IMG/VR virus record: IMGVR_UViG_3300032523_000456
Coordinates: 1-28,033 of that record
Reading direction: 5' to 3' (one strand)
From: a virus
Length of the DNA: 28,033 nt
In this document: piece after piece, positions 1 through 18,434 of the stretch
Layout of the letters: each line of letters starts with the position of its first letter
Numbering within the stretch: position 1 is the first letter of the stretch
Position numbers and translations under genes: made by a program
The notes under the pieces: generated by a model
Database searches by the model: none
What the model was told of the DNA's origin: nothing
The model's input: the letters and a program-made list of their open reading frames with translations, nothing else

Positions 1-10
1 CAGAGAGCAA

Positions 11-496
11 TCAATTCTCGCTGGGCTTCAAGCGCGTGGCGTTCTTGATCATATCCAGCGCGGCCTGCAGTGTCTTCAAGCCGTCGTCCGTCTTGATCTC
101 GATCGCAGCGCCGTCCTTGCCAGTGTGTTCGATCTTGGAGCGATCACTCCAATCATCGGGGAAGCGCGCAGACATCGAGCGGCTGTACAGGCCACCGTCG
201 ATGGACCGATTGCGCATGCCGTCGTAGCCCAGATCCTCCCAGTGCGCCTGCGAAAGCGAGCGCGCCTCTGCCATCGCGACCGAAAAGTCTGGGATGTCGC
301 GCATCCACTCGTGGACCGTGGACTTGGCCACATGGAAGTCTGCAGCGATCTGGCAGAGGCTCTTGCCCAGAGCTCCGAGCTCAACGGCGCGCGCGCAGAA
401 CTCGCTCTTGTACACCGTCGGGCGGCCGAACACGTAGCCGGGTGGCTTGGGAGCCGCCACGATTGCCGCGAGCTTTTTCGTTTTCTTTTTAGCCAT
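11..496 (-). CDS. terminase small subunit-like DNA-binding protein
   Basis: 161 residues. After a Lys-rich start comes a GRPTVY motif (about residues 24-29), then a helix-turn-helix around residues 45-65 (KSLCQIAADFHVAKSTVHEWM region) and a segment with SQAHWEDLG. This order is typical of phage terminase small subunits, which bind the packaging site and recruit the large ATPase/nuclease subunit; the large subunit would lie beyond the left edge. I chose the ATG at 496 (MAKKK) rather than the longer open frame to 565, because the extra residues look non-coding and would run into the small gene at 531-608. It is last of three visible genes in the leftward operon. Family assignment is by motif memory; a generic HTH regulator is the main alternative. 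Confidence 0.72.
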   Translation of the reverse strand: MAKKKTKKLAAIVAAPKPPGYVFGRPTVYKSEFCARAVELGALGKSLCQIAADFHVAKSTVHEWMRDIPDFSVAMAEARSLSQAHWEDLGYDGMRNRSIDGGLYSRSMSARFPDDWSDRSKIEHTGKDGAAIEIKTDDGLKTLQAALDMIKNATRLKPSEN

Positions 497-530
497 AGCC
501 CACACCAATACTATCTCGGACGGCCATGCG

Positions 531-608
531 TCAACGGTGCAGAGCCCAGAGCACGACGGACACAATGACCACCGCCCAGATGGCGCAGCCTATTGGCGCG
601 TCGCTCAT
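531..608 (-). CDS. 25-residue single-pass membrane peptide
   Basis: A short gene: ATG at 608-606, TGA at 533-531. Its peptide begins MSDAPIG and is then almost entirely hydrophobic (CAIWAVVIVSVVLWAL), ending LHR, so it is a single membrane helix. Its ATG overlaps the TGA of the upstream AP2-domain gene as ATGA, which implies translational coupling. It sits between that gene and the terminase-like gene. Tiny membrane proteins in late operons can be holin-like, but at 25 residues nothing more specific can be claimed. Function unknown. The ATGA overlap and clean hydrophobic block argue against a chance frame. Confidence 0.55.
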   Translation of the reverse strand: MSDAPIGCAIWAVVIVSVVLWALHR

Positions 609-1369
609 ACCAGATCAGCGCCTCCGCGCTGCTTGTCCAACATCAACTGCCAGCGGCGACGCGCCTCTGTCTCGCCCAGATCGTCTATCATGCTCGCACA
701 CAACCTGTCGGCCGGATCAAAGGGGCGGCACATCGGGTCCGCAGCCACCGCGTCGCCAATGTGCGCCACGATCTGGGCCTCGGCCCGCACCCTCGGTGTC
801 GCCGGACGCACCTCAGTCCCGGCGTCCGCATCCTTGCGCTGGCCTCGATGCGCGTCGCATGTGCGCGTGATGCCAGACAGTGTCCGAGCCCTAGCCAGCG
901 TGCGCGTGTGATAAGATACTCCGCACACTGCACACTCCGAAGTCCAACGCAGGAAGAGCCAGTTCCGCTTCGGACCCCCCTCACGTTTCTTGAAGTAATT
1001 CTTTCCCACCACCTCGAAGACCTGATCGTCAGGCGTGACGAACAACTCACCCACCGCAGGGTGACCATACTGATCCTTCGCGCAGTTCTCGTGGAAGTCC
1101 GCATAGCACTTGGGCATCGTCCACCTCTCAGGGTCAGACGGCACGCCACCAGATCGCCTCACAGGGTTGTCACGGCGCACCGACTGGTAAGCCGCCGACG
1201 CACCCTCCACTGTCCGAAACGACCCCAGCCACCTCCTCTCGCCCGCTACCATGACCACAGACGTGAAGCGGTCAATCCGCCTGTCATACGTCACGCCGCG
1301 ATGCTCGGCCGCCATGGCGCGCTTCTGTTCGAGGGTAAAATCTTGCAATAATGCTTCGTCCTTCGACAT
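605..1369 (-). CDS. AP2-domain protein with C-terminal zinc-binding motif
   Basis: 254 residues. Residues about 24-65 match the AP2/ERF-like fold: GVTYDRR, then RFTSVVMVAGERRWLGSF, then TVEGASAAYQSV, the usual three strands plus helix. Further on C146-X2-C149 and C171-X2-H174 could form a zinc site. In phages AP2 domains are common in homing endonucleases and DNA-binding proteins; no HNH motif is evident here, so a DNA-binding or regulatory role is more likely (inference). It is the first gene of the leftward operon, directly behind a possible promoter, and its stop overlaps the start of the 25-residue membrane peptide. Confidence 0.6.
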   Translation of the reverse strand: MSKDEALLQDFTLEQKRAMAAEHRGVTYDRRIDRFTSVVMVAGERRWLGSFRTVEGASAAYQSVRRDNPVRRSGGVPSDPERWTMPKCYADFHENCAKDQYGHPAVGELFVTPDDQVFEVVGKNYFKKREGGPKRNWLFLRWTSECAVCGVSYHTRTLARARTLSGITRTCDAHRGQRKDADAGTEVRPATPRVRAEAQIVAHIGDAVAADPMCRPFDPADRLCASMIDDLGETEARRRWQLMLDKQRGGADLV

Positions 1370-1393
1370 CCTGTACCCCCGTGCTGGTGGTCC

Positions 1394-1423
1394 CTTCTAC
1401 AGACAGGGTTTTCACTCTGTCAA
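1394..1423 (-). promoter_or_regulatory. possible sigma70-type promoter of the leftward operon
   Basis: On the minus strand TTGACA (1423-1418) is followed after 18 bases by TAGAAG (1399-1394), 25 bases upstream of the AP2-gene ATG. The -35 is perfect, the -10 only 4/6. The -35 overlaps a small GACAG/CTGTC dyad (1402-1406 and 1417-1421) that could be an operator. Confidence 0.4.
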
Positions 1424-1444
1424 GTGAGCAACACTTTAACCGCA

Positions 1445-1474
1445 TGTGCATCCACATAGATAGTGGGATGCACA
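1445..1474. promoter_or_regulatory. 9-bp inverted repeat, candidate operator
   Basis: TGTGCATCC (1445-1453) and GGATGCACA (1466-1474) are perfect inverted arms around a 12-base centre. Arm centres are 21 bases apart, two helical turns, which suits a dimeric DNA-binding protein better than a terminator; no T-run follows on either strand. It lies just upstream of the leftward -35 box. Confidence 0.45.
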
Positions 1475-1655
1475 CACGTTGCAGTGGTTCGCAGAGTTTT
1501 GCCGACCAGAGCCCATTTGTTGCAAACACTGTGCAGATTACGACCATCCAATTGGTTTGATTATCCTATTCCGTTTTCCTGATCAACCTGCAGACTGTAT
1601 GCAGAGCGTAACTATCCTACTGATCTCATTGGCGTAATTAACCCCCCGCCCCACC

Positions 1656-1680
1656 TGCAGAGCAAACCACCCACTCTGCA
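1656..1680. promoter_or_regulatory. 7-bp inverted repeat upstream of the first early promoter
   Basis: TGCAGAG (1656-1662) and CTCTGCA (1674-1680) form a perfect dyad with an 11-base centre, ending 16 bases before the TTGACG of the 1697 promoter. TGCAGA also occurs nearby at about 1533, 1590 and 1599, so several sites of one binding protein are possible. Confidence 0.35.
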
Positions 1681-1696
1681 CCCCCGAAAATAGATG

Positions 1697-1740
1697 TTGA
1701 CGCCCACCCCGATATAGACCATATTGATCTCCAGCAACGA
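1697..1740 (+). promoter_or_regulatory. early promoter and leader cassette, copy 1
   Basis: TTGACG (1697-1702), 17-base spacer, CATATT (1720-1725), then 8 bases later GCAACGA (1734-1740), where the transcript would be expected to start, and a GAGGA ribosome-binding site before the ATG at 1756. Shares GATATA and CAGCAACGAGAC with the other copies. Confidence 0.55.
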
Positions 1741-1755
1741 GACGAGGACTACCCG

Positions 1756-2103
1756 ATGACCAAGCGCCAGCCCCGCTGCTCCTCCTGCCGCCACGGCGAG
1801 ATCAACTGCCCGGCAGACGTTCAGGTCTCGGGCAAGACCCCCGAGGGCCGCCCCTTCCGCGCCAACGTCTGCCTCGGGCACCTCGACTTGCTGGAGCTTG
1901 ACGGCTACGACGTGCGCCTGACGGCCTACTTCAGCGACCTGCCCGAGGTGCTGGCCTACAAGGCGGCCGCCGTGTGGGAACGCTACGTGGCCGCCAAGGC
2001 CCGCGCCAAGACCTACCCCACGGGCAGCGCCGCCCGCCTGCAGGGCATGAACGCCGCGCTGGCGCTCCACGCCCAGTGGCTGAACCTCGTGCCGGGGGTC
2101 TGA
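1756..2103 (+). CDS. hypothetical early protein with Cys/His cluster
   Basis: 115 residues, not recognised. The N-terminus has CSSC at residues 8-11 and a further Cys in GEINC, followed around residues 39-43 by VCLGH, so a small zinc site is plausible. The C-terminal half is helical and Ala-rich. RBS GAGGA lies 9 bases before the ATG. It is the first gene of the rightward early region, directly behind promoter copy 1. Position suggests an immediate-early host-takeover or regulatory protein, but no function can be assigned. Confidence 0.65.
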   Translation: MTKRQPRCSSCRHGEINCPADVQVSGKTPEGRPFRANVCLGHLDLLELDGYDVRLTAYFSDLPEVLAYKAAAVWERYVAAKARAKTYPTGSAARLQGMNAALALHAQWLNLVPGV

Positions 2104-2112
2104 AAATAGTTC

Positions 2113-2155
2113 TTGCTATCCTCTGCGATATGTGTATACTCCTTGTCAGCAACGA
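2113..2155 (+). promoter_or_regulatory. early promoter and leader cassette, copy 2
   Basis: TTGCTA (2113-2118), 16-base spacer, TATACT (2135-2140), then 8 bases and GCAACGA (2149-2155), followed by AAAAGGAC before the ATG at 2173. The spacer word TATCCTCTGCGATATG is almost identical in copy 3. Confidence 0.72.
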
Positions 2156-2172
2156 GACAAAAGGACTTCCAC

Positions 2173-2262
2173 ATGACCCTCTTCCGCCGCCTCCTGACCG
2201 TCCTCGACGTCTGGGCCGACACGTTCAACGTCCTTGAGATCGACAACACGGAGCTGTTCTAA
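2173..2262 (+). CDS. 29-residue early peptide
   Basis: ATG at 2173, TAA at 2260-2262. The peptide MTLFRRLLTVLDVWADTF followed by NVLEIDNTELF is amphipathic with a basic start and acidic tail. It stands directly behind promoter copy 2 and an AAAAGGAC ribosome-binding site, and its stop overlaps the next ATG (TAATG), so it is either a real small protein or a leader peptide coupling translation of the gene at 2262. Not recognised. Confidence 0.5.
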   Translation: MTLFRRLLTVLDVWADTFNVLEIDNTELF

Positions 2263-2525
2263 TGAACATCCAGACCACCACCGACGCCCGCGCCATTGGC
2301 GCTCCCGCTAGCTCCTACACGTGCCGCCTCGTGGACGCCGACGGCGTCGAGGTCAGCCTGCCCCACCGCGCCAAGGCGTGGGACGGCAGCGAGTACACGA
2401 TCGACAGCTTCAAGCCGTCGCGGTTCCAGAACAACCCCGGCTACCTCTACACGCGCGGCCCGCGCGGCCACGAGACGCTCGTGCCGTCCTGCTTCAAGCT
2501 CGCCATCATCTTTCAGGAGATCTGA
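2262..2525 (+). CDS. hypothetical early protein
   Basis: 87 residues, not recognised. Predicted mostly beta: SSYTCRLVDADGVEVSLP, then YTIDSFKPSR and GHETLVPSCFKLAIIF. No signal peptide or membrane helix. Its ATG overlaps the stop of the 29-residue peptide (TAATG), so both are probably translated from one mRNA starting near 2149. A run of nine C residues (2527-2535) follows its stop. Confidence 0.62.
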   Translation: MNIQTTTDARAIGAPASSYTCRLVDADGVEVSLPHRAKAWDGSEYTIDSFKPSRFQNNPGYLYTRGPRGHETLVPSCFKLAIIFQEI

Positions 2526-2535
2526 ACCCCCCCCC

Positions 2536-2576
2536 TTGTTATCCTCTCCGATATGTATATATTAACTGGGCAACGA
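2536..2576 (+). promoter_or_regulatory. early promoter and leader cassette, copy 3
   Basis: TTGTTA (2536-2541), 16-base spacer, TATATT (2558-2563), 6 bases, GCAACGA (2570-2576), then ACAGGAC before the ATG at 2595. It is immediately preceded by nine C residues. Confidence 0.72.
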
Positions 2577-2594
2577 GAAAACAGGACTTCAGAC

Positions 2595-2864
2595 ATGATC
2601 ACCCGCACCACCCACACTGTTGACGGCATCGCGCTGGAAGTCGTGCGCGGCCCGTCCGGTGCCAACATCCTGCGCGACGGCAAGTCCGTCGCCCACGCCC
2701 GTCCGCGTCGCGGCGTCTGGCTGATCACTGTGCCCGGCCACATCTGGCCCGTGACCCCCGGCATGAACAGCGCCCGCTTCGACATCACCGAGACACCCTG
2801 CAAAGCATTCCCCTCACGCGCAGCCGCGCTGGCCGAAGTCGCCCGCATCCTGAAAGGAAACTGA
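2595..2864 (+). CDS. hypothetical early protein
   Basis: 89 residues from MITRTTHTVDG. Not recognised. Beta-rich N-terminal half (TVDGIALEVVRGPSGANILRD region) and a C-terminal helix ending ALAEVARILKGN. The open frame extends upstream to 2553, but that would put the start inside the promoter; the ATG at 2595 sits behind the AGGAC ribosome-binding site of the leader cassette. It probably forms an operon with the gene at 2867. Confidence 0.62.
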   Translation: MITRTTHTVDGIALEVVRGPSGANILRDGKSVAHARPRRGVWLITVPGHIWPVTPGMNSARFDITETPCKAFPSRAAALAEVARILKGN

Positions 2865-2866
2865 TC

Positions 2867-3070
2867 ATGACCACCCAACTCAGCCAATACCGCGCCAAGA
2901 CCGACGCCGAGCTGCTGTACATCGCCAAGGACGCCCACGCGGCGGCCGTCGCCATGCAGCCCATCAACCCGCAGGCCGAGGCCAAGTACTTGGATCAGGT
3001 CAACGACGCCTGCAGCGTGCTGTTCGAGCGCCGCCGCGCCGAGCGCCGCGCCGCCAAGCAGGAGGCCTGA
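2867..3070 (+). CDS. small helical hypothetical protein
   Basis: 67 residues, not recognised. Almost entirely helical and charged, ending in a basic segment (FERRRAERRAAKQEA). Begins 2 bases after the preceding stop, with AAAGGAAA as ribosome-binding site. No membrane segment. Short helical proteins like this in phage early operons often bind and inhibit host proteins, but nothing here shows a partner. Confidence 0.58.
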   Translation: MTTQLSQYRAKTDAELLYIAKDAHAAAVAMQPINPQAEAKYLDQVNDACSVLFERRRAERRAAKQEA

Positions 3071-3095
3071 TACGCCAGCCCATGCAACAAGCCAC

Positions 3096-3141
3096 TTGAC
3101 CGCCTGCAACAAACCGCTTACCGTACGCAAATCAGCAACGA
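3096..3141 (+). promoter_or_regulatory. early promoter and leader cassette, copy 4 (weak -10)
   Basis: TTGACC (3096-3101) is followed at 17 bases by TACCGT (3119-3124), a poor -10. GCAACGA (3135-3141) and AAAAGGAC follow before the ATG at 3160. The leader half is well conserved, the promoter half weak. Confidence 0.42.
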
Positions 3142-3159
3142 ACCAAAAGGACAACAATC

Positions 3160-3471
3160 ATGAGCAATCAAATCGCCGCCCGCGTCATCGCCGCAACGTC
3201 ACCCGTTGACCGTCTCGGCGCACTGCGCGCCCAGATCGCCGCGTTGGAAAAGATCGAGACGGTTCTGGTCGAGGAGATCAAGGGCTGGGGCGCGGGCGTG
3301 TATCCCGCTGACGTCTTCAGCGCCACCGTCGGCGAGCCCACCAGCCGCGACACGTTCGACGCCGCCAAGGCCAAGAAGCGCCTGAGCCAGCTCGGCGCGT
3401 CCGACGAGTGGATCGCCAACTGCGTCAAGACGGGCGCGCCCTCGTCGCGCCTCACCCTGACGGACCTCTAG
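3160..3471 (+). CDS. hypothetical phage early protein (helical N-terminus, Gly-Val-Tyr motif)
   Basis: 103 residues. A helix (DRLGALRAQIAALEKIETVL) leads into EEIKGWGAGVYPADVFSATVGE and SRDTFDAAKAKKRLSQLG. This layout, a coiled helix then a short strand with G-x-Y then D-x-x-x-A-K, recurs in small early proteins of alphaproteobacterial phages; I recognise the pattern but know no function. Good AAAAGGACAA ribosome-binding site from leader copy 4. Confidence 0.6.
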   Translation: MSNQIAARVIAATSPVDRLGALRAQIAALEKIETVLVEEIKGWGAGVYPADVFSATVGEPTSRDTFDAAKAKKRLSQLGASDEWIANCVKTGAPSSRLTLTDL

Positions 3472-3473
3472 CG

Positions 3474-3689
3474 ATGGCCAAGAAAACACCAAAGCCCGGT
3501 GCCGCCTACTACGAGGGCGGCTACCGCCTCGTCCAGAACGGCGCGCCCATCCGCGTCGCCGCATGGGTCAAGGATTTATCGCCCAACGCCCGCGCCATGA
3601 TGGGCAAGGGATCGGACGCCAAGCCCAACTCGCCGGAGGTGCAGGCGCAGCGCCACCCCCAGACCACCTACCTGCCGCCGGAGAAATAG
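3474..3689 (+). CDS. small basic hypothetical protein
   Basis: 71 residues from MAKKTPKPGAAYYEGGYRLV. Not recognised. Basic, Gly/Pro-rich, probably poorly structured at its ends. The frame opens at 3408, but the region before 3474 overlaps the preceding gene; ATG 3474 starts 2 bases after that gene's TAG. There is no strong ribosome-binding site, suggesting translation by termination-reinitiation. Confidence 0.55.
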   Translation: MAKKTPKPGAAYYEGGYRLVQNGAPIRVAAWVKDLSPNARAMMGKGSDAKPNSPEVQAQRHPQTTYLPPEK

Positions 3690-3693
3690 AGCC

Positions 3694-3852
3694 ATGAGCG
3701 CATCATCCGACTACTTCATCCAGCACCAGCAGGACATCTGCGACCGCTTCGTCGGCGGCGACCTCGATCGGCAGGAGGCCCATCAGGCGCTCGTGCGCAT
3801 GGGCTTCGACCCGCACGAGGCGAAAGATCTGCTGGACGAGGCCGTGGCGTGA
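3694..3852 (+). CDS. 52-residue hypothetical protein
   Basis: ATG 3694, TGA 3850-3852. The peptide MSASSDYFIQHQQDICDRF continues into LDRQEAHQALVRMGFDPHEAKDLLDEAVA. The second half has the helix-loop-helix look of a small three-helix (UBA-like) bundle, with MGFDPHEAKDLL resembling the MGF loop of such folds. No assigned function. Its TGA overlaps the next gene's GTG (GTGA). Confidence 0.55.
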   Translation: MSASSDYFIQHQQDICDRFVGGDLDRQEAHQALVRMGFDPHEAKDLLDEAVA

Positions 3853-4100
3853 CCGTCGGACCCCTCCCCACCATCCATCTGGGCGGCACATCCGCGCGGG
3901 CGCTCTTTGATCAGTACCTGACAGCCGCAGAGGCTGTCAGGGCTGCTCTTGAGGCCCTGCCGCAGGCCGCGCCGCACATGCGCGACTACATCGGCAGGGA
4001 CGACGACTTCCGCGCTGCGGAGGCCGCCCACGCCGTGAGGCGCGTGCTGCTCAAGCAGGTCAAGAGCGAGCTGTTCGCTCTCGCATCGCACGTGGCGTAA
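3849..4100 (+). CDS. hypothetical helical protein, GTG start
   Basis: 83 residues starting at GTG 3849, which overlaps the preceding TGA by GTGA. Not recognised. Mainly helical: SARALFDQYLTAAEAVRAAL and FRAAEAAHAVRRVLLKQV. The GTGA junction is used again at 5348 and 5897 in this phage, which supports the start. Co-translated with its upstream neighbour; no membrane segment or metal motif. Confidence 0.6.
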   Translation: MTVGPLPTIHLGGTSARALFDQYLTAAEAVRAALEALPQAAPHMRDYIGRDDDFRAAEAAHAVRRVLLKQVKSELFALASHVA

Positions 4101-4132
4101 CGAGAACCGGAAACGAAACGGAGTAAACTGAA

Positions 4133-4453
4133 ATGGCAAAGACGATGATGGAAATCCGCGCCCGGCTGTACGTGCTGGCGACGGATCTGAATTGCGCAGA
4201 GTTGAAGCAACTGGCGGACGCCACGAAGCGACGTTTCTTTGGTCGCGTTGCGCCGACACGTCAGGCGAAGATCACGCGTGACATGGTGGCGGAGGTGCGC
4301 GCGGCGTACAAACTGGATCCGAAGATCAGTCAGCGTGCGCTGGCGGCGCGCTTCAAGATAGATCAGGGCCGCGTCAACGAAATCCTGCACGGTTATCGAG
4401 ACGGCACGCCCTTCCGGCTGGACCGCGTCACACCCAAGAAAAGGACACGCTAA
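4133..4453 (+). CDS. helix-turn-helix protein
   Basis: 106 residues. Residues about 45-88 read KITRDMVAEVRAAYKLDP, then ISQRALAARFKIDQGRVNEIL, a helix-turn-helix of the resolvase/HTH_38 type common in phage regulators and homing-endonuclease-associated proteins. The ends are basic (RVTPKKRTR). Likely a DNA-binding regulator of early genes (inference). GGAG 9-10 bases before the ATG is the ribosome-binding site. It heads a cluster with the small zinc-ribbon-like and membrane proteins that follow. Confidence 0.6.
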   Translation: MAKTMMEIRARLYVLATDLNCAELKQLADATKRRFFGRVAPTRQAKITRDMVAEVRAAYKLDPKISQRALAARFKIDQGRVNEILHGYRDGTPFRLDRVTPKKRTR

Positions 4454-4456
4454 GCC

Positions 4457-4633
4457 ATGGCACTGATGCACAAACACACCTGCCCATATTGCAAGGGCGA
4501 AGGCTTCGTGAGCAAGGCCAAGGCTGGGAAGGTTCTGGTCGCTCGCGATCGCACAAAGTTCAACGCATCGATGGTGTCGGTCAACGCCGCATACCGCGCC
4601 CGTCAGAAGGCTAAGAAGGCACTTGAGAAGTAG
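4457..4633 (+). CDS. 58-residue protein with CPYC motif
   Basis: ATG 4457, TAG 4631-4633. MALMHKHTCPYCKGEGF contains CPYC with nearby His residues; the rest is Lys/Arg/Ala-rich and helical (AAYRARQKAKKALEK). Only one CXXC pair is present, so a full zinc ribbon would need a dimer or the His residues. A small nucleic-acid-binding protein is plausible. It starts 3 bases after the HTH gene stop. Not recognised. Confidence 0.55.
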   Translation: MALMHKHTCPYCKGEGFVSKAKAGKVLVARDRTKFNASMVSVNAAYRARQKAKKALEK

Positions 4634-4674
4634 AGACTGGAGAATTAACAATCCAACAGGCCGGGAGAACAACC

Positions 4675-4842
4675 ATGACAAAACGCAACTGGGGCATCAC
4701 TGGTAAATGTTACGAGCCGCCGCCCTTACCGAGCGGCCGCAGTCGCCGCGTGGAGCGTATCAACCACGTGCTGGCGTCGCTGTTGATCATCATCGTGGCG
4801 GTGGGGTCGTTGTTGATCCTGCTGGAAATTGTGAGGACATAA
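4675..4842 (+). CDS. 55-residue single-pass membrane protein
   Basis: ATG 4675, TAA 4840-4842. A basic cytoplasmic N-terminus (MTKRNWGITGKCYEPPPLPS then RSRRVERIN) precedes one clear transmembrane helix (VLASLLIIIVAVGSLLILL) and a short EIVRT tail. The positive-inside rule puts the N-terminus in the cytoplasm. GGGAG lies upstream of the ATG. It is followed after 2 bases by the gcrA-like gene. Could be a superinfection-exclusion or membrane-takeover peptide; nothing proves it. Confidence 0.58.
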   Translation: MTKRNWGITGKCYEPPPLPSGRSRRVERINHVLASLLIIIVAVGSLLILLEIVRT

Positions 4843-4844
4843 CT

Positions 4845-5351
4845 GTGGCAACCGTATCTGACTGGACTGACGACAAGGTGAAGGTGCTGGAGACGCTCTG
4901 GGCGAATGGCCTGACGTCTGCCGCGATCGGCAAGGTGCTCGGCAAGACGCGCAATGCTGTGCTGGGCAAGGCTCACCGCCTCGCCCTGCCCCAGCGTTTT
5001 ATCGCCAGCGCCAAGCCCCGCTCATGCGAGCGCGTGCTGGAGACGCCACCGCGCATGCGCCCCGAGAAGATCGCGCCGAGCGCCCACAACAAGCCCGCAA
5101 AGCTCATGGCCGGTGATCGCAATCTGCGCCTGCGTACCGCCCCGCAGAACGAGGTCGCGGTTGGCGAGGTAGACATCATGGCCCTGCGCGAGTGGCACTG
5201 CCGCTGGCCGCGCATCGAGCCGTCTGCGCCCGGAGGTCATATGTATTGCGGGGGCCAGAGACAAAACGTGGGATCGTACTGTGCGGAGCACGCCGCCATC
5301 GCCTATCAACCAGCCAAGCCGCAGCGCGTCGCCGCGACGAGGGCAACGTGA
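4845..5351 (+). CDS. gcrA-like: GcrA-like cell-cycle regulator
   Basis: 168 residues from GTG 4845. The N-terminus (WTDDKVKVLETLWANGLTSA, then IGKVLGKTRNAVLGKAHRL, residues 7-46) is the GcrA helix-turn-helix, and the C-terminus has the family's Cys-rich end: WHCRWP, MYCGG, YCAEHAAIAYQP (residues about 117-156). In Caulobacter GcrA binds sigma70-RNA polymerase and activates promoters carrying CcrM-methylated GANTC. Length fits the family. The frame opens at 4707 but the upstream part overlaps the membrane-protein gene in another frame. A phage copy could redirect host polymerase. The window has no GANTC, so its own promoters cannot be ordinary GcrA targets. Confidence 0.85.
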   Translation: MATVSDWTDDKVKVLETLWANGLTSAAIGKVLGKTRNAVLGKAHRLALPQRFIASAKPRSCERVLETPPRMRPEKIAPSAHNKPAKLMAGDRNLRLRTAPQNEVAVGEVDIMALREWHCRWPRIEPSAPGGHMYCGGQRQNVGSYCAEHAAIAYQPAKPQRVAATRAT

Positions 5352-5662
5352 CCACACCAGCATACCACCGCCCCACCAGCATACGCTCGCACCACACACT
5401 GCTGGCCGAGCAGCGCGCAGAGCAACGCCAACGCCTGTCCATGTACACGGCAGAGGAGCTGCGCCAGCGGCAAAACGAACTGGCCACACGCAGGCAGTTA
5501 GACGAGGCGCACCAGAGGCGCATCGGCTACATGACGTCGGCCCGGCCTGATAGCGTCGCGCTGGTGCGCTACAGCAACTCGCGCGGCATGAGCAAGCAGG
5601 CCATGGATCGGATCTGGGGCCGGGTGTTTGTTGACGCAGTGCTGCTCCAATCTCAACGGTGA
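5348..5662 (+). CDS. hypothetical coiled-coil protein, GTG start
   Basis: 104 residues from GTG 5348, overlapping the GcrA stop as GTGA. The central part is a long, charged, Gln/Glu/Arg-rich helix (LLAEQRAEQRQRLSMYTAEE, then LRQRQNELATRRQL) that could form a coiled coil. C-terminal GRVFVDAVLL. Not recognised. Tight coupling to GcrA suggests expression in a fixed ratio with it. Confidence 0.6.
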   Translation: MTTPAYHRPTSIRSHHTLLAEQRAEQRQRLSMYTAEELRQRQNELATRRQLDEAHQRRIGYMTSARPDSVALVRYSNSRGMSKQAMDRIWGRVFVDAVLLQSQR

Positions 5663-5675
5663 ACAAGGAGACGTT

Positions 5676-5900
5676 ATGCAGAAACTCAACCTGACCATCG
5701 TGCCGCCCGCCAAGCGGGCGCACGTCTACAACAACGAGCAAGGCATGCGGCGCATGCTGCGGCTCAAGAAGTCGCTGCTGGCGGCCGCCGCGCAGTACGT
5801 GCGCGACGGCGCGACCGGCACACGCAATGATCGCGTGCGGGCCAGCAGCGAAGCCACGGGCATCCCACGCAACCTGATCGAGATCGCGGTGGGCAAGTGA
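5676..5900 (+). CDS. hypothetical basic protein
   Basis: 74 residues from ATG 5676 behind one of the best ribosome-binding sites of the window (AAGGAG, 5 bases before ATG). The frame could start at a TTG at 5628 but that has no such site. Basic helical protein: RMLRLKKSLLAAAAQYVRDG, then ASSEATGIPRNLIEIAVGK, the latter resembling the second half of a small HTH. Possibly nucleic-acid-binding. Not recognised. Its TGA overlaps the next GTG. Confidence 0.6.
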   Translation: MQKLNLTIVPPAKRAHVYNNEQGMRRMLRLKKSLLAAAAQYVRDGATGTRNDRVRASSEATGIPRNLIEIAVGK

Positions 5901-6232
5901 ACCCCAAGGATGCCGCCGCACGTGACCGCTGCCCGCTGGACCTGATCCCCGGCCCTGCGGCGCTGACGGTGGCGTGGGCGCTCAAAAACGGCGCGGACAA
6001 GTACGGGCCGTTCAACTGGCGCTCGCAGCCCATCAAGGCCAGCAACTACCTCGCCGCCGCAGAGCGGCACATCAAGGCGTGGCAGGACGGTGAGCGCAGT
6101 GCGCCAGACAGCGGCGTGCATCACATCGCCCACGCCATTGCCGGGTTGATGATCCTGCTGGACGCCGAGGCGTGCAGCACGCTGATCGATGATCGTCCGC
6201 CGCCCTGCAGAAGCGCACCAGATGTTCGATGA
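5897..6232 (+). CDS. dATP/dGTP diphosphohydrolase-like (DUF5664, MazG-like) protein
   Basis: 111 residues from GTG 5897 (GTGA overlap). It shows the order of the phage DUF5664 family: CPLDLIPGPAALTVAWAL, KNGADKYGPFNWR, YLAAAERHIKAWQDGE, then SGVHHIAHAIAGLMILLDAE. The conserved K-Y-G-P-x-N-W and H-x-A-H-A positions are present. Family members are annotated as dATP/dGTP pyrophosphohydrolases that hydrolyse dNTPs to dNMPs, shaping the nucleotide pool during phage replication; relatives occur in phages with modified adenine. Nothing else seen here indicates 2-aminoadenine. The last 11 bases overlap the next small gene. Confidence 0.7.
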   Translation: MNPKDAAARDRCPLDLIPGPAALTVAWALKNGADKYGPFNWRSQPIKASNYLAAAERHIKAWQDGERSAPDSGVHHIAHAIAGLMILLDAEACSTLIDDRPPPCRSAPDVR

Positions 6233-6302
6233 ATACCCCATCTGCGGACTAGCCCTAGTGCTCACCGTCGTTGCGGTGATCTTTTTTCTGGCGACACGCT
6301 GA
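6222..6302 (+). CDS. 26-residue single-pass membrane peptide
   Basis: ATG 6222, TGA 6300-6302. MFDEYPICGLALVLTVVAV then IFFLATR: an acidic tip, one hydrophobic helix and a basic end. It overlaps the end of the DUF5664 gene by 11 bases in another frame. This is the third such mini membrane protein in the window (others at 531 and 4675). The orientation of charges suggests N-out, C-in. Function unknown. Confidence 0.45.
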   Translation: MFDEYPICGLALVLTVVAVIFFLATR

Positions 6303-6366
6303 ACACCATTGCCTCAAGCATACACTTGCGCCTAGGATCGCGACCCCACACAAGGTGATCTCCATA

Positions 6367-6597
6367 ATGATCGGTATCAGAGAAGCTGTCCGCAAGGCTG
6401 ACGGCGGCCCACAGTTGGCCCGCAAGCTGGGCGTGACGCATCAGGCTGTCTATCAGTGGCTCGCCAAGGGCTGGGTGCCGCTCACGCGCGCACTGCAGAT
6501 CGAGCGCCTCTACGGCATCCCACGCCAGCGGCTGGTGAGCCCGAAGATCGCCCGACTGTTTGAGACGAAGAAGCCAAAGGGCCTTGATCTGATCTAA
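6367..6597 (+). CDS. Cro/YdaS-like helix-turn-helix regulator
   Basis: 76 residues from ATG 6367. REAVRKADGGPQLARKLGVT, then HQAVYQWLAKGWVP and RALQIERLYGIPRQRLVSP, is a textbook Cro/YdaS-type HTH: the recognition helix is THQAVYQWL, and the W-V-P-x-x-R-A-L-x-I-E tail is typical. Such proteins are phage repressors or Cro-like switches acting at nearby operators. I prefer ATG 6367 to GTG 6355 because AAGGTGAT lies upstream. A weak promoter-like pair (TTGCCT 6309, TAGGAT 6333) precedes it. A repressor here would suggest temperate ancestry, although no integrase is seen. Confidence 0.75.
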   Translation: MIGIREAVRKADGGPQLARKLGVTHQAVYQWLAKGWVPLTRALQIERLYGIPRQRLVSPKIARLFETKKPKGLDLI

Positions 6598-6620
6598 CTG
6601 CAAAGTGCGAAGAGGACACC

Positions 6621-7421
6621 ATGACGAATACCAGCAACGTGAAGCTAGAAAACTTTGTGCTCGGGGACGGCTTCGTCGATGCCATTCTCGGCTCAACGGA
6701 GCGCACAAAAGCCTTGAGCAGTACGCTCATCGCAATGGCGGAAGTTGGTATCGACAAGCTGCCCTACGAAAACCTCATGGTGACGCTCTCTGCGGCGGCG
6801 TGGCTCACAGTTGTTACAGACACGCCCGTGGTTGAAGCCATCAAGCGGTTTCCGCGATTAGCCGATAAGAGGTCGTATTTTACCATATACGTCCGCGACG
6901 CCGTTGGGGGCAAAGTGGAAGGGGCGGAAGTATCCACTCAACACACCATGCCATCCGGGCACACGGAGGACGCGACGCGCAGCTACGCGGAGTTCCTAGG
7001 GCTAAACGGAGGGTCGTCTGTAAGCGCAGGCTCCGACATGACGGTGGCCGCAACTAAAATCCTTGGTGCTCTGATTGTCGGTCTTAACATGCGCGGCGCG
7101 CGCAAGGAAAGAAAAGCAGAGAAGGTATCCAAGCTCGCGCAACTGGGCATAGGCAAGAAGCGCCCCGAGCCGCGCTACTCCTACACTACCACAATATCTA
7201 TTTCTTACGCGGATGTTCAAGACGACGGAACAGGAACGCGGCCGGGGCACACCAAGCGGCCCCACCTGCGGCGCGGGCATGTGCGCGAGCAGCACTGGGG
7301 TCCAGCCAATCAGTTTGTCAAAAAGATTTTTGTTGAGCCGATCTTTGTAAACTCCGACGGTGAGTTCGTTTCGTCTCTGCGCGAACGATACAATATCTCG
7401 TCGATGTCGGCCGTCGGCTAA
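6621..7421 (+). CDS. hypothetical protein with C-terminal RRGH motif
   Basis: 266 residues, start supported by GAGGACACC before ATG. Mostly helical N-terminus with a hydrophobic patch (VTLSAAAWLTVV), then an alpha/beta region. The end reads RPHLRRGHVREQHWG, then FVKKIFVEPIFVNSDG. This R-P-H-x-R-R-G-H-x-R...V-x-P module recurs at the C-terminus of many phage and plasmid proteins of unknown function. AT content is visibly higher than in neighbours, suggesting more recent acquisition. Sits just before the primase-helicase. No enzymatic motif recognised. Confidence 0.6.
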   Translation: MTNTSNVKLENFVLGDGFVDAILGSTERTKALSSTLIAMAEVGIDKLPYENLMVTLSAAAWLTVVTDTPVVEAIKRFPRLADKRSYFTIYVRDAVGGKVEGAEVSTQHTMPSGHTEDATRSYAEFLGLNGGSSVSAGSDMTVAATKILGALIVGLNMRGARKERKAEKVSKLAQLGIGKKRPEPRYSYTTTISISYADVQDDGTGTRPGHTKRPHLRRGHVREQHWGPANQFVKKIFVEPIFVNSDGEFVSSLRERYNISSMSAVG

Positions 7422-7442
7422 CCGTTTATCAGAAAGCGCACC

Positions 7443-9497
7443 GTGTCAGTCGTGTCGGTCAAACCACAACACAAGCAGATCGTCGTCCCCTCCGCGCTTG
7501 CCGCGTCGCCGAATTGGGTGATATGGCGCTACGAGCACCACGACGGCGAGAGCAAGCCCCGCAAGGTGCCGTACTACACCGACGGCGGCCGCAGGCACGG
7601 CACGCAGGGCGCACCCGCTGATCGCGCTTCGCTCTCGACGTTTCCTGCCGCGCGCGACGCCGCCGCCCGACGCGGCTTCGACGGCGTTGGTCTCGCCATG
7701 CTCCCCGAACTGGGCATAACGGCGCTGGATTTTGACCAGTGCGTCGGCCCCGACGGCAGCCTGCCGGACGAGGTCAAGGCCATCGTCTGCCGCACCTACG
7801 CTGAGCACAGTCCGTCCGGCACCGGCATCCGCGCCTTCGTGCGCGGCGATCTGGGCAACAACAAGAGCCTCGCAGAGCCGGGCAGGTACGGCTTTGAGAC
7901 ATTTGCCACCAACGGCTTTGTCACGGTCACAGGCGACATGCTGCCCGTCACCGACCTGCTGGGATTGGAGGACACGATTGCCCCCGTAGACGACGCTCTG
8001 AGGGCTCTGGCGGACGCCCGCTTTGGCGCAGATCGCCAGAGCCAAGAGCCGACGGGCGACCCCTTCGACAGCTTCGAGCCGCGCCTCGGCCTGACGCAGG
8101 ATCAGATGCAGACCCTGCTCGATGCGATAGACCCCGACATCGGCCGGGCGGACTGGGTCCGGGTGGGCATGGGCCTGCACCACGAGTGTAGCGGCGACGA
8201 CACCGGCTTTGAGCTTTGGAACGAATGGTCCTCGGGCGGCGGCAAATACCCCTCTGAGGAGAGCCTCAGAGCCCAGTGGGACAGCTTTGACCGGCCCAAG
8301 CGCACTGGGCAGCGCCCCGTGACCATGGCCTCCACGATCCGGCTGGCAAAGCAGGCGGGCGTTGCGCTCAACCGCTCCGCCTCGCCGGACGCGATCAGGG
8401 AGGCCACGGCGCAGACGCCGGACGGCGATCCATTCAGCCACGTGGCGACGCCAGACGGCTACGGTGGGCGATTTCCGATAGTCGGCGCAGAGGCCATGAC
8501 GCGCAAGGAGCCGGGGGACTGGTTCATAAAAAACGTTTTGCCCAATGCCGACGTGGGCCTGATCTTCGGACCCACGTCCTCCGGCAAAACTTTTGCCATC
8601 CTCGATCTGGCTGCGGCCGTGGCGCGCGGCGAGCCGTGGCGCGGGCACCGCACGAAGCGCGGACGTGTACTGATCATCGCAGCCGAGGGCGGCAGCGGCG
8701 TGGGCAAGCGCATCAAGGCCTACTGCCAACACCACAACATCGAGCCGCGCGATCTGGACGTGGGCGTCATCACCGCCGCGCCGAACTTCATGCAGGAGGC
8801 GGACATCACGGACGTGGTGTCGTCCATCAAGGCCGCAGGCGGCGTCAAGCTGATCATCGTGGATACGTTTGCGCAGGTCACGGCTGGTGCGAATGAAAAT
8901 AGCGGCGAGGACATGGGCACGGCTCTGGCCAATGCCAAGGTGCTGCGCGAAGTCACGGGCGCAATGGTCATCCTCGTGCATCACACCGGCAAGGACGTGT
9001 CGCGCGGTGCGCGCGGCTGGAGCGGCATCAAGGCCGCACTGGACGTGGAGCTGGAGGTGATGCGCCACGACAGCGGAGAGCGCGAGCTGCGCATCAGCAA
9101 GATGAAAGACGGCGACGACGGCCTGTCGTGGGGTTTCCGGCTGGAGATCTTGACGGTCGGCGTGGACCGCGACGGCGACGGCGTCACGTCCTGCGTGGCC
9201 GTCGAGGCTGCCGCCCCAGTGCGGATGGCGCAGGACGACGCGACGCCACGCAAGGGCACCCGGCGCATGGGCAAGCTGCAGACGCACATTGTGGATATGG
9301 TGGACACGGTGGACCCGAAGATCATGTCCATGTCACTGACGGACTTCGTCACGCTCTGCGCGGGCGGCACGCCTCCACCGGACGACAGCAAGCGCGACGT
9401 GCGCAGGCAAGTGCTGGCGCGCGACATCCGCGCGATGGCGAAGTGGCCAGACGGAGCATTCACGCTAGATAATAACACCGTTATTTTTCTCAGATAG
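7443..9497 (+). CDS. primase-helicase (prim-pol-like, PriCT-2-like and RepA-type AAA ATPase)
   Basis: 684 residues from GTG 7443. N-terminal domain: WVIWRYE, KVPYYTDG, then LDFDQC (D96/D98, metal-binding D-x-D) and HSPSGTGIRAF (122-132), as in archaeo-eukaryotic primase-polymerase domains. A PriCT-2-like helical linker (about 217-285, WVRVGMGLHHE) follows. The C-terminal half is a RepA/AAA_25 ATPase with Walker A GPTSSGKT (about 376-383), Walker B LIIVDTFAQ (about 470-478) and sensor-like VILVHHTGKD. It would unwind and prime phage DNA for the family A polymerase at 13095. The ribosome-binding site is weak (AGAAAG). No separate DnaB-type helicase is visible. Confidence 0.85.
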   Translation: MSVVSVKPQHKQIVVPSALAASPNWVIWRYEHHDGESKPRKVPYYTDGGRRHGTQGAPADRASLSTFPAARDAAARRGFDGVGLAMLPELGITALDFDQCVGPDGSLPDEVKAIVCRTYAEHSPSGTGIRAFVRGDLGNNKSLAEPGRYGFETFATNGFVTVTGDMLPVTDLLGLEDTIAPVDDALRALADARFGADRQSQEPTGDPFDSFEPRLGLTQDQMQTLLDAIDPDIGRADWVRVGMGLHHECSGDDTGFELWNEWSSGGGKYPSEESLRAQWDSFDRPKRTGQRPVTMASTIRLAKQAGVALNRSASPDAIREATAQTPDGDPFSHVATPDGYGGRFPIVGAEAMTRKEPGDWFIKNVLPNADVGLIFGPTSSGKTFAILDLAAAVARGEPWRGHRTKRGRVLIIAAEGGSGVGKRIKAYCQHHNIEPRDLDVGVITAAPNFMQEADITDVVSSIKAAGGVKLIIVDTFAQVTAGANENSGEDMGTALANAKVLREVTGAMVILVHHTGKDVSRGARGWSGIKAALDVELEVMRHDSGERELRISKMKDGDDGLSWGFRLEILTVGVDRDGDGVTSCVAVEAAAPVRMAQDDATPRKGTRRMGKLQTHIVDMVDTVDPKIMSMSLTDFVTLCAGGTPPPDDSKRDVRRQVLARDIRAMAKWPDGAFTLDNNTVIFLR

Positions 9498-9500
9498 TTC

Positions 9501-9529
9501 TTGCAATGATTGTATTGCGGGAATATAGG
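9501..9529 (+). promoter_or_regulatory. possible promoter
   Basis: TTGCAA (9501-9506), 17-base spacer, TATAGG (9524-9529), shortly before AGGAGG and the ATG at 9547. The upstream word ATAGTTCTTGC is shared with promoter copy 2 (2107-2116). No GCAACGA follows, and the distance to the ribosome-binding site is short. Confidence 0.35.
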
Positions 9530-9546
9530 ATGACACAGGAGGACAC

Positions 9547-9768
9547 ATGACCAGCAAAGATAAAGACCGCACCTACTATTTCCAGAGCACGACGTTAGAC
9601 CTGATTGCGTTTGCCAAAGAGAAAGGCCGCAGCGAGCTTGAGATCGCCATGGGCGAACGGTTGGCGGATTTTACGGACAACGGCTACGAGGATTACGACG
9701 ACTATGAGTACGACGCGCAAGACGAACTGAAAACCAAAAGCAACGAGAAAGAGGACAAATCGCTATGA
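9547..9768 (+). CDS. small acidic hypothetical protein
   Basis: 73 residues behind a strong AGGAGG ribosome-binding site. The helical N-terminal half (DLIAFAKEKGRSELEIAMGE) is followed by a strongly acidic, Tyr-rich tail (NGYEDYDDYEYDAQDE) and a mixed-charge end. The acidic Tyr/Asp tract could mimic DNA or act as a charged linker (inference). Not recognised. Its TGA overlaps the next ATG (ATGA). Its last codons also carry GCAACGAGAAAGAGGAC, matching the promoter leader. Confidence 0.6.
   Translation: MTSKDKDRTYYFQSTTLDLIAFAKEKGRSELEIAMGERLADFTDNGYEDYDDYEYDAQDELKTKSNEKEDKSL
9740..9759 (+). promoter_or_regulatory. leader-like element inside a coding region
   Basis: GCAACGA (9740-9746) followed by GAGGAC lies just before the ATG at 9765 and closely matches the leader of promoter copy 3, but within the 3' end of the preceding gene and without a convincing -10. 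It probably provides the ribosome-binding site; the wider match may mean GCAACGA works at translation level. Confidence 0.3.
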
Positions 9769-10124
9769 AATATAATCTGACGTTCGAGGCGGACGACATC
9801 CGCGAACTTGCGCACAATCTGTTGGTGGTTGGCGCACGCCTGAGCGGTGCACCGCTTGAAACCGTGGCGCAGCCTGCTGCTGTTGAGATCGCGCCACCTG
9901 CGTTGATCGAGACGGTGGTGCCGGAGCCGCCGGAACCCGCCAAGGCTCGCGTGTACGACTACGTCACCGAGATCGCACCGCGCGTGCTGGTGCTGGTGGA
10001 CAAGAAGGGGCGCGACGCTGCCAAGGCGCTGCTGGCTGATTTCGGAGCGGCCAAGGCGTCGGAGGTTGACGTCTCTCGCCACGCCGAGTTCGTCGCTGCT
10101 CTGGATGCGGCGGCGACATCCTAG
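9765..10124 (+). CDS. hypothetical protein with flexible linker
   Basis: 119 residues from the ATGA overlap. A short N-terminal domain (MKYNLTFEADDIRELAHNLL) is joined by an Ala/Pro/Glu-rich linker (about residues 45-65) to a helical C-terminal domain (PRVLVLVDKKGRDAAKALLA, then DFGAAKASEV). The C-terminal module resembles small phage proteins that sit beside replication nucleases, but I cannot name it. Directly upstream of the DUF2800 nuclease, whose GTG overlaps its stop. Confidence 0.6.
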   Translation: MKYNLTFEADDIRELAHNLLVVGARLSGAPLETVAQPAAVEIAPPALIETVVPEPPEPAKARVYDYVTEIAPRVLVLVDKKGRDAAKALLADFGAAKASEVDVSRHAEFVAALDAAATS

Positions 10125-11305
10125 TGGGCGCACACTCAGTCCTGAGCCCGTCGTCGGCGCATCGCTGGATGCGCTGCCCCGGCAGCATCAACGCAGAGAG
10201 CGCGCTGCCCGACACGACGTCAAGCTACGCCGCCGAGGGCAGTGTGGCGCACTTACTCGCAAGCGATGATCTCACGGGCACACCCGCCCGTGAGCGCATC
10301 GGCGAGATCATCACCATCGACGGCTTTGCGTTCGAAGTCACAGAGCACATGGTCGCTCACGTCGAGGACTACTGCAGTCTAGTTAGGGAGCGCGCGCAAG
10401 GCGGCCAGTTGTTGGTTGAGAAGCGCGTGGATTTTTCCAACTTCGTCGGCGTGGCGGGCAGCACAGGAACGTCCGACGCCATCATCCTGCACCCCGGCAC
10501 GATCACGGTTATCGACTTGAAATACGGTATGGGCGTCAAGGTGGACGCGGATAACAACGAGCAGATGCAGTTGTATGCTCTTGGTGCCCTGCACGACTAC
10601 GACCTGCTGGGGGATTTCACGAGCATCGTTATGCTCGTGCATCAGCCGCGCCTCAATCATGTCAGCGAGTTCTGCGTGGGCAGAGAGCAGTTGCTGGAGT
10701 TCGGCGATGATGCGCGTCTGGCGGCGGTGGCGGCGCTGGAGCACAGCGAGCCGCGTCTGGTGCCGGGCGAGAAGCAGTGCCGCTGGTGCCGCGCCAAGTC
10801 GTCTTGCCCGGCTCTGCGCGAGGTGATCAACGACACTGTTGGGGGGATCGCTACCGTGAATGATTTTGCTGATCTGGCGGTTGTGGACACCGCGCCGCTC
10901 GCCGCAGCCATGTCGCGCGTGGATCTGGTGGAGCAGTGGTGCAAGGCGATCCGCGCCGAGGTGGAGCGCCGCCTGCTCAACGCCGAGCCGGTGCCGGGCT
11001 TCAAGCTGGTCGAAGGCCGCAAGAGCAACAGATCATGGACAGACGAGGCGGAGGCTGCGAAACTGCTCAAGAGCTTCAAGCTCAACCGTGATCAGATGTA
11101 CGACTGGAAATTGATCAGCCCCACGTCGGCTGAGAAAGTATTGAAGACCGAGCCCGCGAACTGGAAGGCCCTAAATGCCGTGATCCATCGCGCGGACGGC
11201 AAACCATCCGTGGCATCCGCCACTGATAAGCGCCCAGAGATGGTCGTTTCTAACGCGACGGAAGAACTCCTTCGCATAGCTGCAAACTGCAAAGAGGAAA
11301 ATTGA
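10124..11305 (+). CDS. DUF2800 Cas4/RecB-like PD-(D/E)XK nuclease with Fe-S site
   Basis: 393 residues from GTG 10124, overlapping the previous TAG by one base. Nuclease core: E99 in VEKRV, D118 in GTSDAIIL, D131-x-K133 in VIDLKYG, and EQMQLYALG. Four Cys (C18 in MRCPG, and C219-X2-C222-X5-C228) match the Fe-S cluster of Cas4/AddB-like nucleases. Family role: processing of DNA ends in phage recombination and replication. It is followed by the DUF2815 protein, the usual partner in phages with this type of replication module. All catalytic residues are present. Confidence 0.88.
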   Translation: MGAHSVLSPSSAHRWMRCPGSINAESALPDTTSSYAAEGSVAHLLASDDLTGTPARERIGEIITIDGFAFEVTEHMVAHVEDYCSLVRERAQGGQLLVEKRVDFSNFVGVAGSTGTSDAIILHPGTITVIDLKYGMGVKVDADNNEQMQLYALGALHDYDLLGDFTSIVMLVHQPRLNHVSEFCVGREQLLEFGDDARLAAVAALEHSEPRLVPGEKQCRWCRAKSSCPALREVINDTVGGIATVNDFADLAVVDTAPLAAAMSRVDLVEQWCKAIRAEVERRLLNAEPVPGFKLVEGRKSNRSWTDEAEAAKLLKSFKLNRDQMYDWKLISPTSAEKVLKTEPANWKALNAVIHRADGKPSVASATDKRPEMVVSNATEELLRIAANCKEEN

Positions 11306-11307
11306 AA

Positions 11308-11880
11308 ATGTCTATTCGCTTGAAGAACGTGGTCATTAACTTCCCGACACTGGCAACGCCGGAGGCCTTTGGTGGTGACGACCCGGCCTATTCGGCCAAG
11401 TTCAGCATCGACCCGAAGAGCGAGAACGCCAAGATGCTCGACGCGGCTATCACCGCCGTCGCCAAGGAGAAGTGGGAGGGCAAGGCCGACAGCGTCTTGA
11501 AGTCGTTTGGCGACGACAGCAAAAAGATTTGCTACCTGAAGAAGCCCTACCAGAACCAGAAGACGGGCGAAGTGTATGACGGCTTCGAGGGCATGTACTC
11601 ACTCTCCGCCCGCAACAAAAAGAACCGCCCGACCATCGTGGATCGCTTTGGCCGTGAGGTCACGGACGCGGCGGCCATCAAGTCGCTGATCTACTCCGGT
11701 TGTTCTGTCCACGCCACGATCGAAATCTGGGCGCAGGACAATACGTTTGGGCGCGGTGTGCGCGCCACGCTGACCGGCGTCATGTTTGCCAAGGACGGCA
11801 AGGCGTTTGGTGGTTCGGCTCCGGCTACGGCGAGCGACTTTGCCGATCTGGCCCAGTCCGAAGATGAGGCGCTGGTGTAA
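11308..11880 (+). CDS. DUF2815 ssDNA-binding-like protein
   Basis: 190 residues from ATG 11308 behind AAAGAGGAAAA; an alternative TTG at 11302 is less likely. Features of the family: RLKNVVINFPTLATPEAFGG, YSAKFSIDPKSE, ICYLKKPYQNQKTGEVYDGF, YSLSARNKKNRPTIVDRFG, SGCSVHATIEIWAQDN. DUF2815 proteins are OB-fold-like and thought to be phage single-strand DNA-binding proteins, always next to DUF2800 and a family A polymerase, as here. The acidic C-terminus (SDFADLAQSEDEALV) fits the partner-binding tail of such proteins. Confidence 0.85.
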   Translation: MSIRLKNVVINFPTLATPEAFGGDDPAYSAKFSIDPKSENAKMLDAAITAVAKEKWEGKADSVLKSFGDDSKKICYLKKPYQNQKTGEVYDGFEGMYSLSARNKKNRPTIVDRFGREVTDAAAIKSLIYSGCSVHATIEIWAQDNTFGRGVRATLTGVMFAKDGKAFGGSAPATASDFADLAQSEDEALV

Positions 11881-12167
11881 TGGCAAAGCGCGAGACGGAC
11901 GACAGTGCCGCGACGATCGGGCATAACGCCCCTGTCGCTGCGCAGGAGCTGCGCGCCTTCGTCGAGCGCATAGAAGACCTTGAAAATCGCAAAGCCTTGC
12001 TGGGCGAAGACATCAAGGGCGTCTATGCCGAGGTGAAGTCCACCGGCTTCGACAGCAAAACCCTGCGCAAGATCGTGGCCCTTCGCAAGATGGACGACGA
12101 GAAGCGTGTTGAGCAGCAGAGCCTGCTTCAACTTTATGCTGACGCACTGGGACTTGATCTGGTATAA
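11880..12167 (+). CDS. gapR-like: GapR-family (DUF2312) nucleoid protein
   Basis: 95 residues; ATG 11880 overlaps the previous stop (TAATG). It has the family signature: FVERIEDLENRKALLGEDIK, GVYAEVKSTGFDSKTLRKIV, then ALRKMDDEKR and LLQLYADALGL. Caulobacter GapR forms a clamp around overtwisted DNA ahead of replication and transcription and stimulates type II topoisomerases. A phage copy beside the ssDNA-binding protein could relieve positive supercoils during phage replication, or compete with the host protein (inference). The N-terminal tail (TIGHNAPV) is common in phage copies. It is the last gene before a hairpin. Confidence 0.85.
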   Translation: MAKRETDDSAATIGHNAPVAAQELRAFVERIEDLENRKALLGEDIKGVYAEVKSTGFDSKTLRKIVALRKMDDEKRVEQQSLLQLYADALGLDLV

Positions 12168-12173
12168 CAGCAA

Positions 12174-12201
12174 CGTGGCGGCCGGGAGACTGGCCGCCAC
12201 G
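12174..12201 (+). terminator. strong hairpin, possible terminator
   Basis: CGTGGCGGCC (12174-12183) and GGCCGCCACG (12192-12201) pair perfectly over 10 GC-rich bases around an 8-base loop, just after the GapR stop. GTTCTGTTCTGG follows, only partly T-rich, so termination may be incomplete or the hairpin may protect the 3' end. Confidence 0.5.
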
Positions 12202-12240
12202 GTTCTGTTCTGGTGAGGCGCGCTAGGCGCAGCGGCAAAG

Positions 12241-12312: not shown

Positions 12313-12316
12313 TGAA

Positions 12317-13078: not shown

Positions 13079-13094
13079 AGTTACGAGGACACCT

Positions 13095-15050: not shown

Positions 15051-15051
15051 C

Positions 15052-18420: not shown

Positions 18421-18434
18421 ATAAGGACAGCCAC

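Follow-up and report, generated by a model that had tools for sequence, protein, structure and literature searches.

We found that a virus fragment encodes a GcrA-family protein that keeps every DNA-reading residue invariant among the cellular GcrAs compared, although the fragment itself contains no GANTC. The window, by which we mean the whole stretch of DNA analysed, is a 28,033-base IMG/VR virus record, perhaps half of a phage genome as judged from its gene-order match with Caulobacter phage RW (62 kb), and the absence of GANTC holds for that part of the genome. In the reading we prefer, with a probability of about 0.55, the protein is directed at the host, where it works with sigma70 as a GcrA-type cofactor on methylated promoters, and the purge of sites is a separate matter that stems from Type II restriction.

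The gcrA-like gene lies on the plus strand at 4845..5351, begins with a GTG at 4845 and has a product of 168 amino acids. An earlier note on this DNA had described a GcrA with a helix-turn-helix and a Cys-rich C-terminus, and the searches bore this out: Pfam family PF07750 covers both domains over residues 6-161 (E 3.5e-28; 99.4 bits against a cut-off of 26.9) and is the sole family above cut-off, and both halves known from the PDB align. The significant PDB relatives by sequence were solely entries of C. crescentus GcrA, namely the full-length protein (7ye1, E 7.7e-22), its DNA-binding domain (DBD; 5yiu) and its sigma-interacting C-terminal domain (SID; 5yix). The window protein is laid out as a DBD at about residues 5-51, a low-confidence linker and a SID-type domain at about 112-156. 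An AF2 model built on a 20-row alignment reached a mean pLDDT of 76.5, with a confident N-terminal part of three helices and a mostly confident C-terminal part, whereas the single-sequence model was poor (pLDDT 48). In Foldseek the DBD model matched 5yiv (TMt 0.90, rmsd 0.7 A, 56% identity over 43 columns) and the C-terminal part matched 5yix (TMt 0.76, rmsd 2.5, 39% identity over 49 columns); 5yiv is the DBD in a methyl-DNA complex and 5yix the SID in complex with sigma70 domain 2. VIA-align gave Z scores of 9.1 and 8.7 for two DBD entries and no separate SID row, the SID match coming from Foldseek alone. The residues through which GcrA contacts sigma70 were reportedly defined by Wu 2018 and Haakonsen 2015. 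Judged from sequence and predicted model, 4845-5351 encodes a genuine, intact GcrA-family protein with both domains present and a fold predicted to be like that of C. crescentus GcrA. No close relative was found in named phages, viral contigs or genomes, where the closest full-length GcrAs shared 31.5%, 36% and about 38-43% identity, respectively; aligned cellular GcrAs were 29-40% identical to it. Among named phages, no nucleotide-level relative of window positions 1-25000 was found either.

The comparison of the recognition helix, which the earlier note had proposed to make with host GcrA, was run on 50 cellular GcrAs, a non-random set biased toward the query (the 30 most query-like loci from a class search, and 20 others out of the 77 that an initial genome scan had supplied). 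Positions with at least 98% identity across these 50 were called invariant and then compared with 18 other phage GcrAs. The window GcrA kept 13/13 cell-invariant DBD residues, including 8/8 in the recognition helix (residues 37-48, NAVLGKAHRLAL, codons 4953..4988 on the plus strand; helix 36-45 in the model). In the SID it kept 9/11, with G124 changed to I and F132 to H in a region of uncertain alignment. All 13 DBD invariants were found in just two of the 18 other phage GcrAs (L013 and L019); in the recognition helix, H44 was kept in 11, A38 in 12 and N37 in 13. The SID core, comprising C119, P122, C135, Y145, C146 and H149, was kept in 18/18, and the SID positions G124, P126 and F132 in just 5/18. 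Thus phage GcrAs generally retain the SID core more firmly than DNA reading, and by its sequence the window protein is unusual among them in that DNA reading appears fully retained though the fragment offers no site.

Two alternatives can be weighed against these residues. The first holds that the phage protein reads some other DNA motif and controls phage promoters by way of that motif; the earlier note had also allowed for another recognition sequence. The recognition helix does vary in other phage GcrAs, but the window copy keeps every cell-invariant helix residue and its DBD model lies within 0.7 A of the DBD in 5yiv, and we regard this idea as highly improbable. The second makes the protein a competitor that blocks the GcrA-binding site of sigma70 and so keeps host GcrA from using it, with DNA reading dispensable and host cell-cycle promoters falling silent. 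The C-terminal core as the common denominator of phage GcrAs, next to the more variable H44, A38 and N37, would fit such a role, as would a possible C-terminal-only relative in phage RW, RW_GP049 (hhalign probability 78.9; Pfam 0.043, below cut-off; no match to our own SID profile at 1e-3). We find competition rather doubtful for the window copy, which keeps all 13 DBD positions that a pure competitor would not need, and DBD-only proteins exist too, in RW (gp061; Pfam E 5.7e-8, above cut-off), in L016 and in Phaeobacter phage MD18 (L047). A further possible SID-only relative occurs in Labrenzia phage V1, and the single-domain loci lie at L042:29325-29639 and L042:18371-18931 in RW, at L041:27798-28409, and in L016 and L047. 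The GcrA of L183 (L183:7789-8205), which is syntenic with that of the window, has lost a lysine of the recognition helix that all 50 cellular GcrAs count as invariant (GK to GA) and has kept the SID core.

The statement in the earlier note that GANTC is missing proved correct for the 28,033-base fragment: there were 0 matches on either strand, compared with a mean of 102 in 100 dinucleotide shuffles (both strands counted, or about 51 sites) and 97 expected from base composition only. In 100 synonymous-codon shuffles of the 25,968 coding bases the count was 47.6 ± 6.0, with a minimum of 35, which rules out chance or codon usage as the source of the zero. GANTC was not the only missing site. Across 1..28033 the fragment was free of ten motifs in all, and in the coding part zero stood against codon-shuffle means of 103.0 for CCWGG, 24.9 for GGCGCC, 27.7 for GCCGGC, 28.4 for CCGCGG, 10.2 for CCCGGG, 11.3 for GTCGAC, 6.9 for CTCGAG, 11.9 for CAGCTG and 12.1 for AGCGCT. 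Type II sites are thus absent beyond composition and codon use, with ten motifs at 0 against means of 6.9-103.0. By the same codon shuffles, GATC was over-represented and GGWCC was present.

To place this absence in its lineage, relatives were gathered by primase and polymerase, with expected site counts for loci taken from base composition only. The primase/helicase gene at 7443..9497 (plus strand; PHROG primase/helicase matches) served as the basis of the tree, which grouped the window with L183 and the RW-like Caulobacter phages, whose replication-module order it shares (support 95/93, moderately secure given the long branches). The primase clade (L158-L181 without L178, plus L186) comprises 24 loci, of which the 22 of at least 10 kb were counted and L171 and L172 (<10 kb) dropped; many are near-identical fragments, and the counts are of records rather than of independent events. 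GANTC and CCWGG were both eliminated in nearly all of these records: GANTC was at 0 in 19/22 (exceptions L159 with 1, L162 with 1 and L161 with 7) and CCWGG in 20/22 (exceptions L158 with 14 and L159 with 10). When the 24 loci were pooled (360,474 bases), the most depleted 5-mers were GAATC/GATTC (0 of 558 expected), GACTC/GAGTC (10 of 763) and CCAGG/CCTGG (24 of 1285). A whole-record search found GcrA in 0/24 of these clade records, which are fragments, and in 1/28 when L178, L183, L187 and L206 were included, the positive one being L183. L183 carries GcrA and has GANTC at 40/83 observed/expected, and RW has 59/208 (39/149 + 20/59). L023, a second GANTC-free record (0/40), has a GcrA with 8/13 DBD invariants, and CCWGG at 130/58. 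L183, RW, L023 and the GcrA-less clade show all combinations, so GcrA and GANTC absence are separate traits. The notion that GANTC absence is a consequence of GcrA was rejected, as relatives lacking GcrA share the absence and relatives carrying GcrA keep GANTC.

A different link would be that the GcrA/CcrM system itself drove the loss of GANTC, so that phage DNA would escape CcrM methylation or go unseen by host GcrA. Consistent with this, the window and L023 are both GcrA-encoding and GANTC-free, GANTC together with CCWGG is the most depleted 5-mer of the clade, and passages of PMC9516812 describe GANTC depletion in pelagiphages whose hosts have no known R-M systems. However, CCWGG and many palindromes are gone from the window just as completely, RW, annotated as a phage of C. 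vibrioides, in which a control search matched GcrA, keeps GANTC, and 69 alphaproteobacterial loci retain a median of 0.51 of the expected GANTC (range 0.15-0.90; base-composition expectation, loci <12 kb removed before counting, 3/80 cellular GcrAs left out). In that sample some shortage of GANTC is the rule, and no locus lacked the site altogether. We consider a purge driven by GcrA/CcrM decidedly unlikely, and the best reading of GANTC loss is that the whole lineage avoids restriction sites, irrespective of GcrA. The observation of the earlier note is sound, and lineage-wide site elimination explains the coupling of GcrA with missing GANTC; the view that the absence informs on GcrA did not hold up, since relatives that have no GcrA lack GANTC too, and CCWGG and many palindromes have gone along with it. 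GANTC loss in this lineage is no evidence of cell-cycle manipulation, and this guards against over-reading similar cases. As a side observation, a 49-kb part of MD18 has CCWGG at 0 of 150 expected and GANTC at 86 of 179.

The loss of many sites suggests strong pressure by several Type II restriction systems. Passages of PMC6286503 report complete or almost complete site elimination in about one-tenth of viral genomes; the window resembles such restriction-avoiding phages in its complete elimination of Type II sites and differs in losing ten specificities at once and in encoding two Mom proteins. These Mom-family DNA-modification (anti-restriction) genes lie at 12362..13078 (PF25680 E 1.5e-41; PHROG 1384 E 1.2e-44) and 15372..16058 (PF25680 E 1e-19; PHROG 1384 E 8.4e-26), both on the plus strand, and neither product had a match in the primase clade (0/24 loci). 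Together, ten specificities at zero and two Mom proteins would argue for the restriction reading. On the other hand, two Mom genes beside complete elimination are unexpected if modification relieves avoidance, and coliphages with a hydroxymethylase avoid few sites according to PMC6286503. In their arrangement, the two Mom genes of this site-eliminating fragment flank the gene for a family A DNA polymerase (13095..15050, plus strand; 62.9% identity to Caulobacter phage RW).

Complete retention of DNA reading in a fragment without sites is our main argument for a host-directed role. A DBD that served phage promoters should have decayed with the sites; as 13/13 positions are kept, host DNA would be the remaining obvious target. 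According to passages of PMC7987155 and PMC7403470, GcrA binds sigma70 domain 2, stimulates solely promoters with a methylated site and has the extended motif YGAKTCG. The window GcrA would bind sigma70 of the host RNA polymerase through its C-terminal domain and boost transcription from chromosomal host promoters with methylated GANTC, including those of replication and division genes. In an infected alphaproteobacterium it would supplement host GcrA at these promoters or take its place, and thereby hold the cell in a replication-competent state, and the phage's own promoters would be read without GcrA and be unaffected by it. Separately, the lineage would have lost GANTC, CCWGG and many palindromes, since genomes with such sites fall victim to Type II restriction. 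The claim of the earlier note that the phage's own promoters cannot be activated through methylated GANTC agrees with the lack of GANTC in the fragment, and points most naturally to a protein that acts in trans on transcription of the host.

More tentatively, the phage may be a one-sided reader, with a GcrA that activates methylated host GANTC promoters only and with its own DNA blank for the mark. If true, this would be transcriptional self/non-self discrimination by an epigenetic mark, enabled by a loss of sites whose original cause was pressure from restriction enzymes. Reports of phage GcrAs date back to 2012, and as far as the papers examined go, these proteins may act on phage or on host promoters. 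The two options come apart in a phage that has no GANTC but whose GcrA still has its DNA-reading domain intact: there, only the host can show an effect that depends on methylation, and the host-directed hypothesis becomes directly testable. Phage-borne GcrA is already in the literature, and so is the depletion of GANTC in phages of Alphaproteobacteria; in the open-access literature, of which our coverage was incomplete, none of the papers listed dealt with a GANTC-free phage that encodes GcrA.

The remaining alternative is that the protein is a methylation-independent co-activator of phage sigma70 early promoters, which sits on the holoenzyme and eases promoter opening without GANTC. Five sigma70 consensus-like sites in 1300-7500, compared with 1.5 +/- 1.2 in shuffles, would suit it, the candidate phage promoters including 1697-1725 and 2113-2140, and a passage of PMC7987155 has GcrA presumably binding sigma70 first and promoters afterwards. 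The same source has GcrA activating methylated-site promoters only, consensus scans are no evidence of function, and RW-type relatives lack an intact gcrA; we judge co-activation of this kind unlikely. The earlier suggestion of sigma70-dependent early genes gained weakly from the excess of sites, as far as a consensus scan reaches.

The gene neighbourhood places gcrA in the early, replication-side region of an RW-related phage, and its expression would probably be early. It is the last gene of a three-gene cassette (4457-5351), preceded by genes for a 58-aa CPYCKGEG protein (4457..4633) and a 55-aa protein whose C-terminal half is hydrophobic (4675..4842), both on the plus strand; the latter has no PHROG match and its gene stops 2 bases ahead of gcrA. 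L183 has the same order upstream of its primase. The first protein scored 106 against L183:7419-7586 and the second 62 against L183:7628-7789, scores reached by 0/2000 shuffles in each case, and the two GcrAs share 34% identity over 156 residues. The common order suggests that the cassette was probably inherited and is not a recent capture. A search for further copies yielded the window and L183 only, L219 having a CPYCKGEG stretch with no GcrA match. An ORF of 104 aa from the ORF list (5348..5662, plus strand; no Pfam match) overlaps the end of gcrA by 4 bases, and the two are likely in one transcription unit. Downstream, the gene at 5897-6232 (plus strand) belongs to the dATP/dGTP pyrophosphohydrolase N-terminal family (PF18909, E 9.3e-29); its best PHROG is labelled 'endolysin; inhibits RNA polymerase', probably through annotation transfer. 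A YdaS/Cro-like HTH gene follows upstream of the primase gene (6355..6597, plus strand; PF15943, E 3e-10) and is present in 24/24 primase-clade loci by tblastn.

Compared with known systems, the window protein shares with C. crescentus GcrA the two-domain layout and all cell-invariant DBD residues, and differs in being phage-borne and in its two changed SID positions. The cellular GcrA/CcrM system has GANTC targets in the genome that carries gcrA, unlike this fragment, a contrast that concerns the system and not the protein family. Another phage-encoded GcrA is gp222 of the phiCbK-like Caulobacter phages (29% identity), for which Gill et al. 2012 (PMC3556154) proposed that it pushes the host into a replicating state. 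The balance of residues is reversed between the two: gp222 keeps 5/8 recognition-helix and 11/11 SID residues, and the window copy 8/8 and 9/11. A 50-kb part of phiCbK keeps GANTC at 45/158 (base-composition expectation), compared with 0 in the window. Like the window, pelagiphages are GANTC-depleted phages of CcrM-methylating Alphaproteobacteria according to passages of PMC9516812; the window additionally lacks CCWGG and many palindromes, and GcrA has 0 occurrences in the main text of that paper.

The nearest named phages were Caulobacter phages RW, KcrB, RLK and GB2A, by DNA polymerase (62.9%) and primase (52.2%). RW and the window are alike in the order of terS, early, replication and late genes and in lacking CCCGGG, CCGCGG, GCCGGC and CAGCTG. 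RW is unlike the window in having GcrA as a DBD-only gene plus a weakly supported SID-only gene, and in that its GANTC and CCWGG are merely depleted. From these relationships the host probably belongs to Caulobacterales, and the window phage may infect Caulobacter. The window also has a gene for an SNF2-type helicase (16034-18382, plus strand) that, as we read the sequence, is split by an intein-like insert at about residues 290-605, and an HNH endonuclease (17076-17768, plus strand; PHROG 374, E 1.1e-55) is encoded within that insert, out of frame with it. The DNA polymerase of RW contains a relative of the insert, and there too a related HNH ORF lies in another frame.
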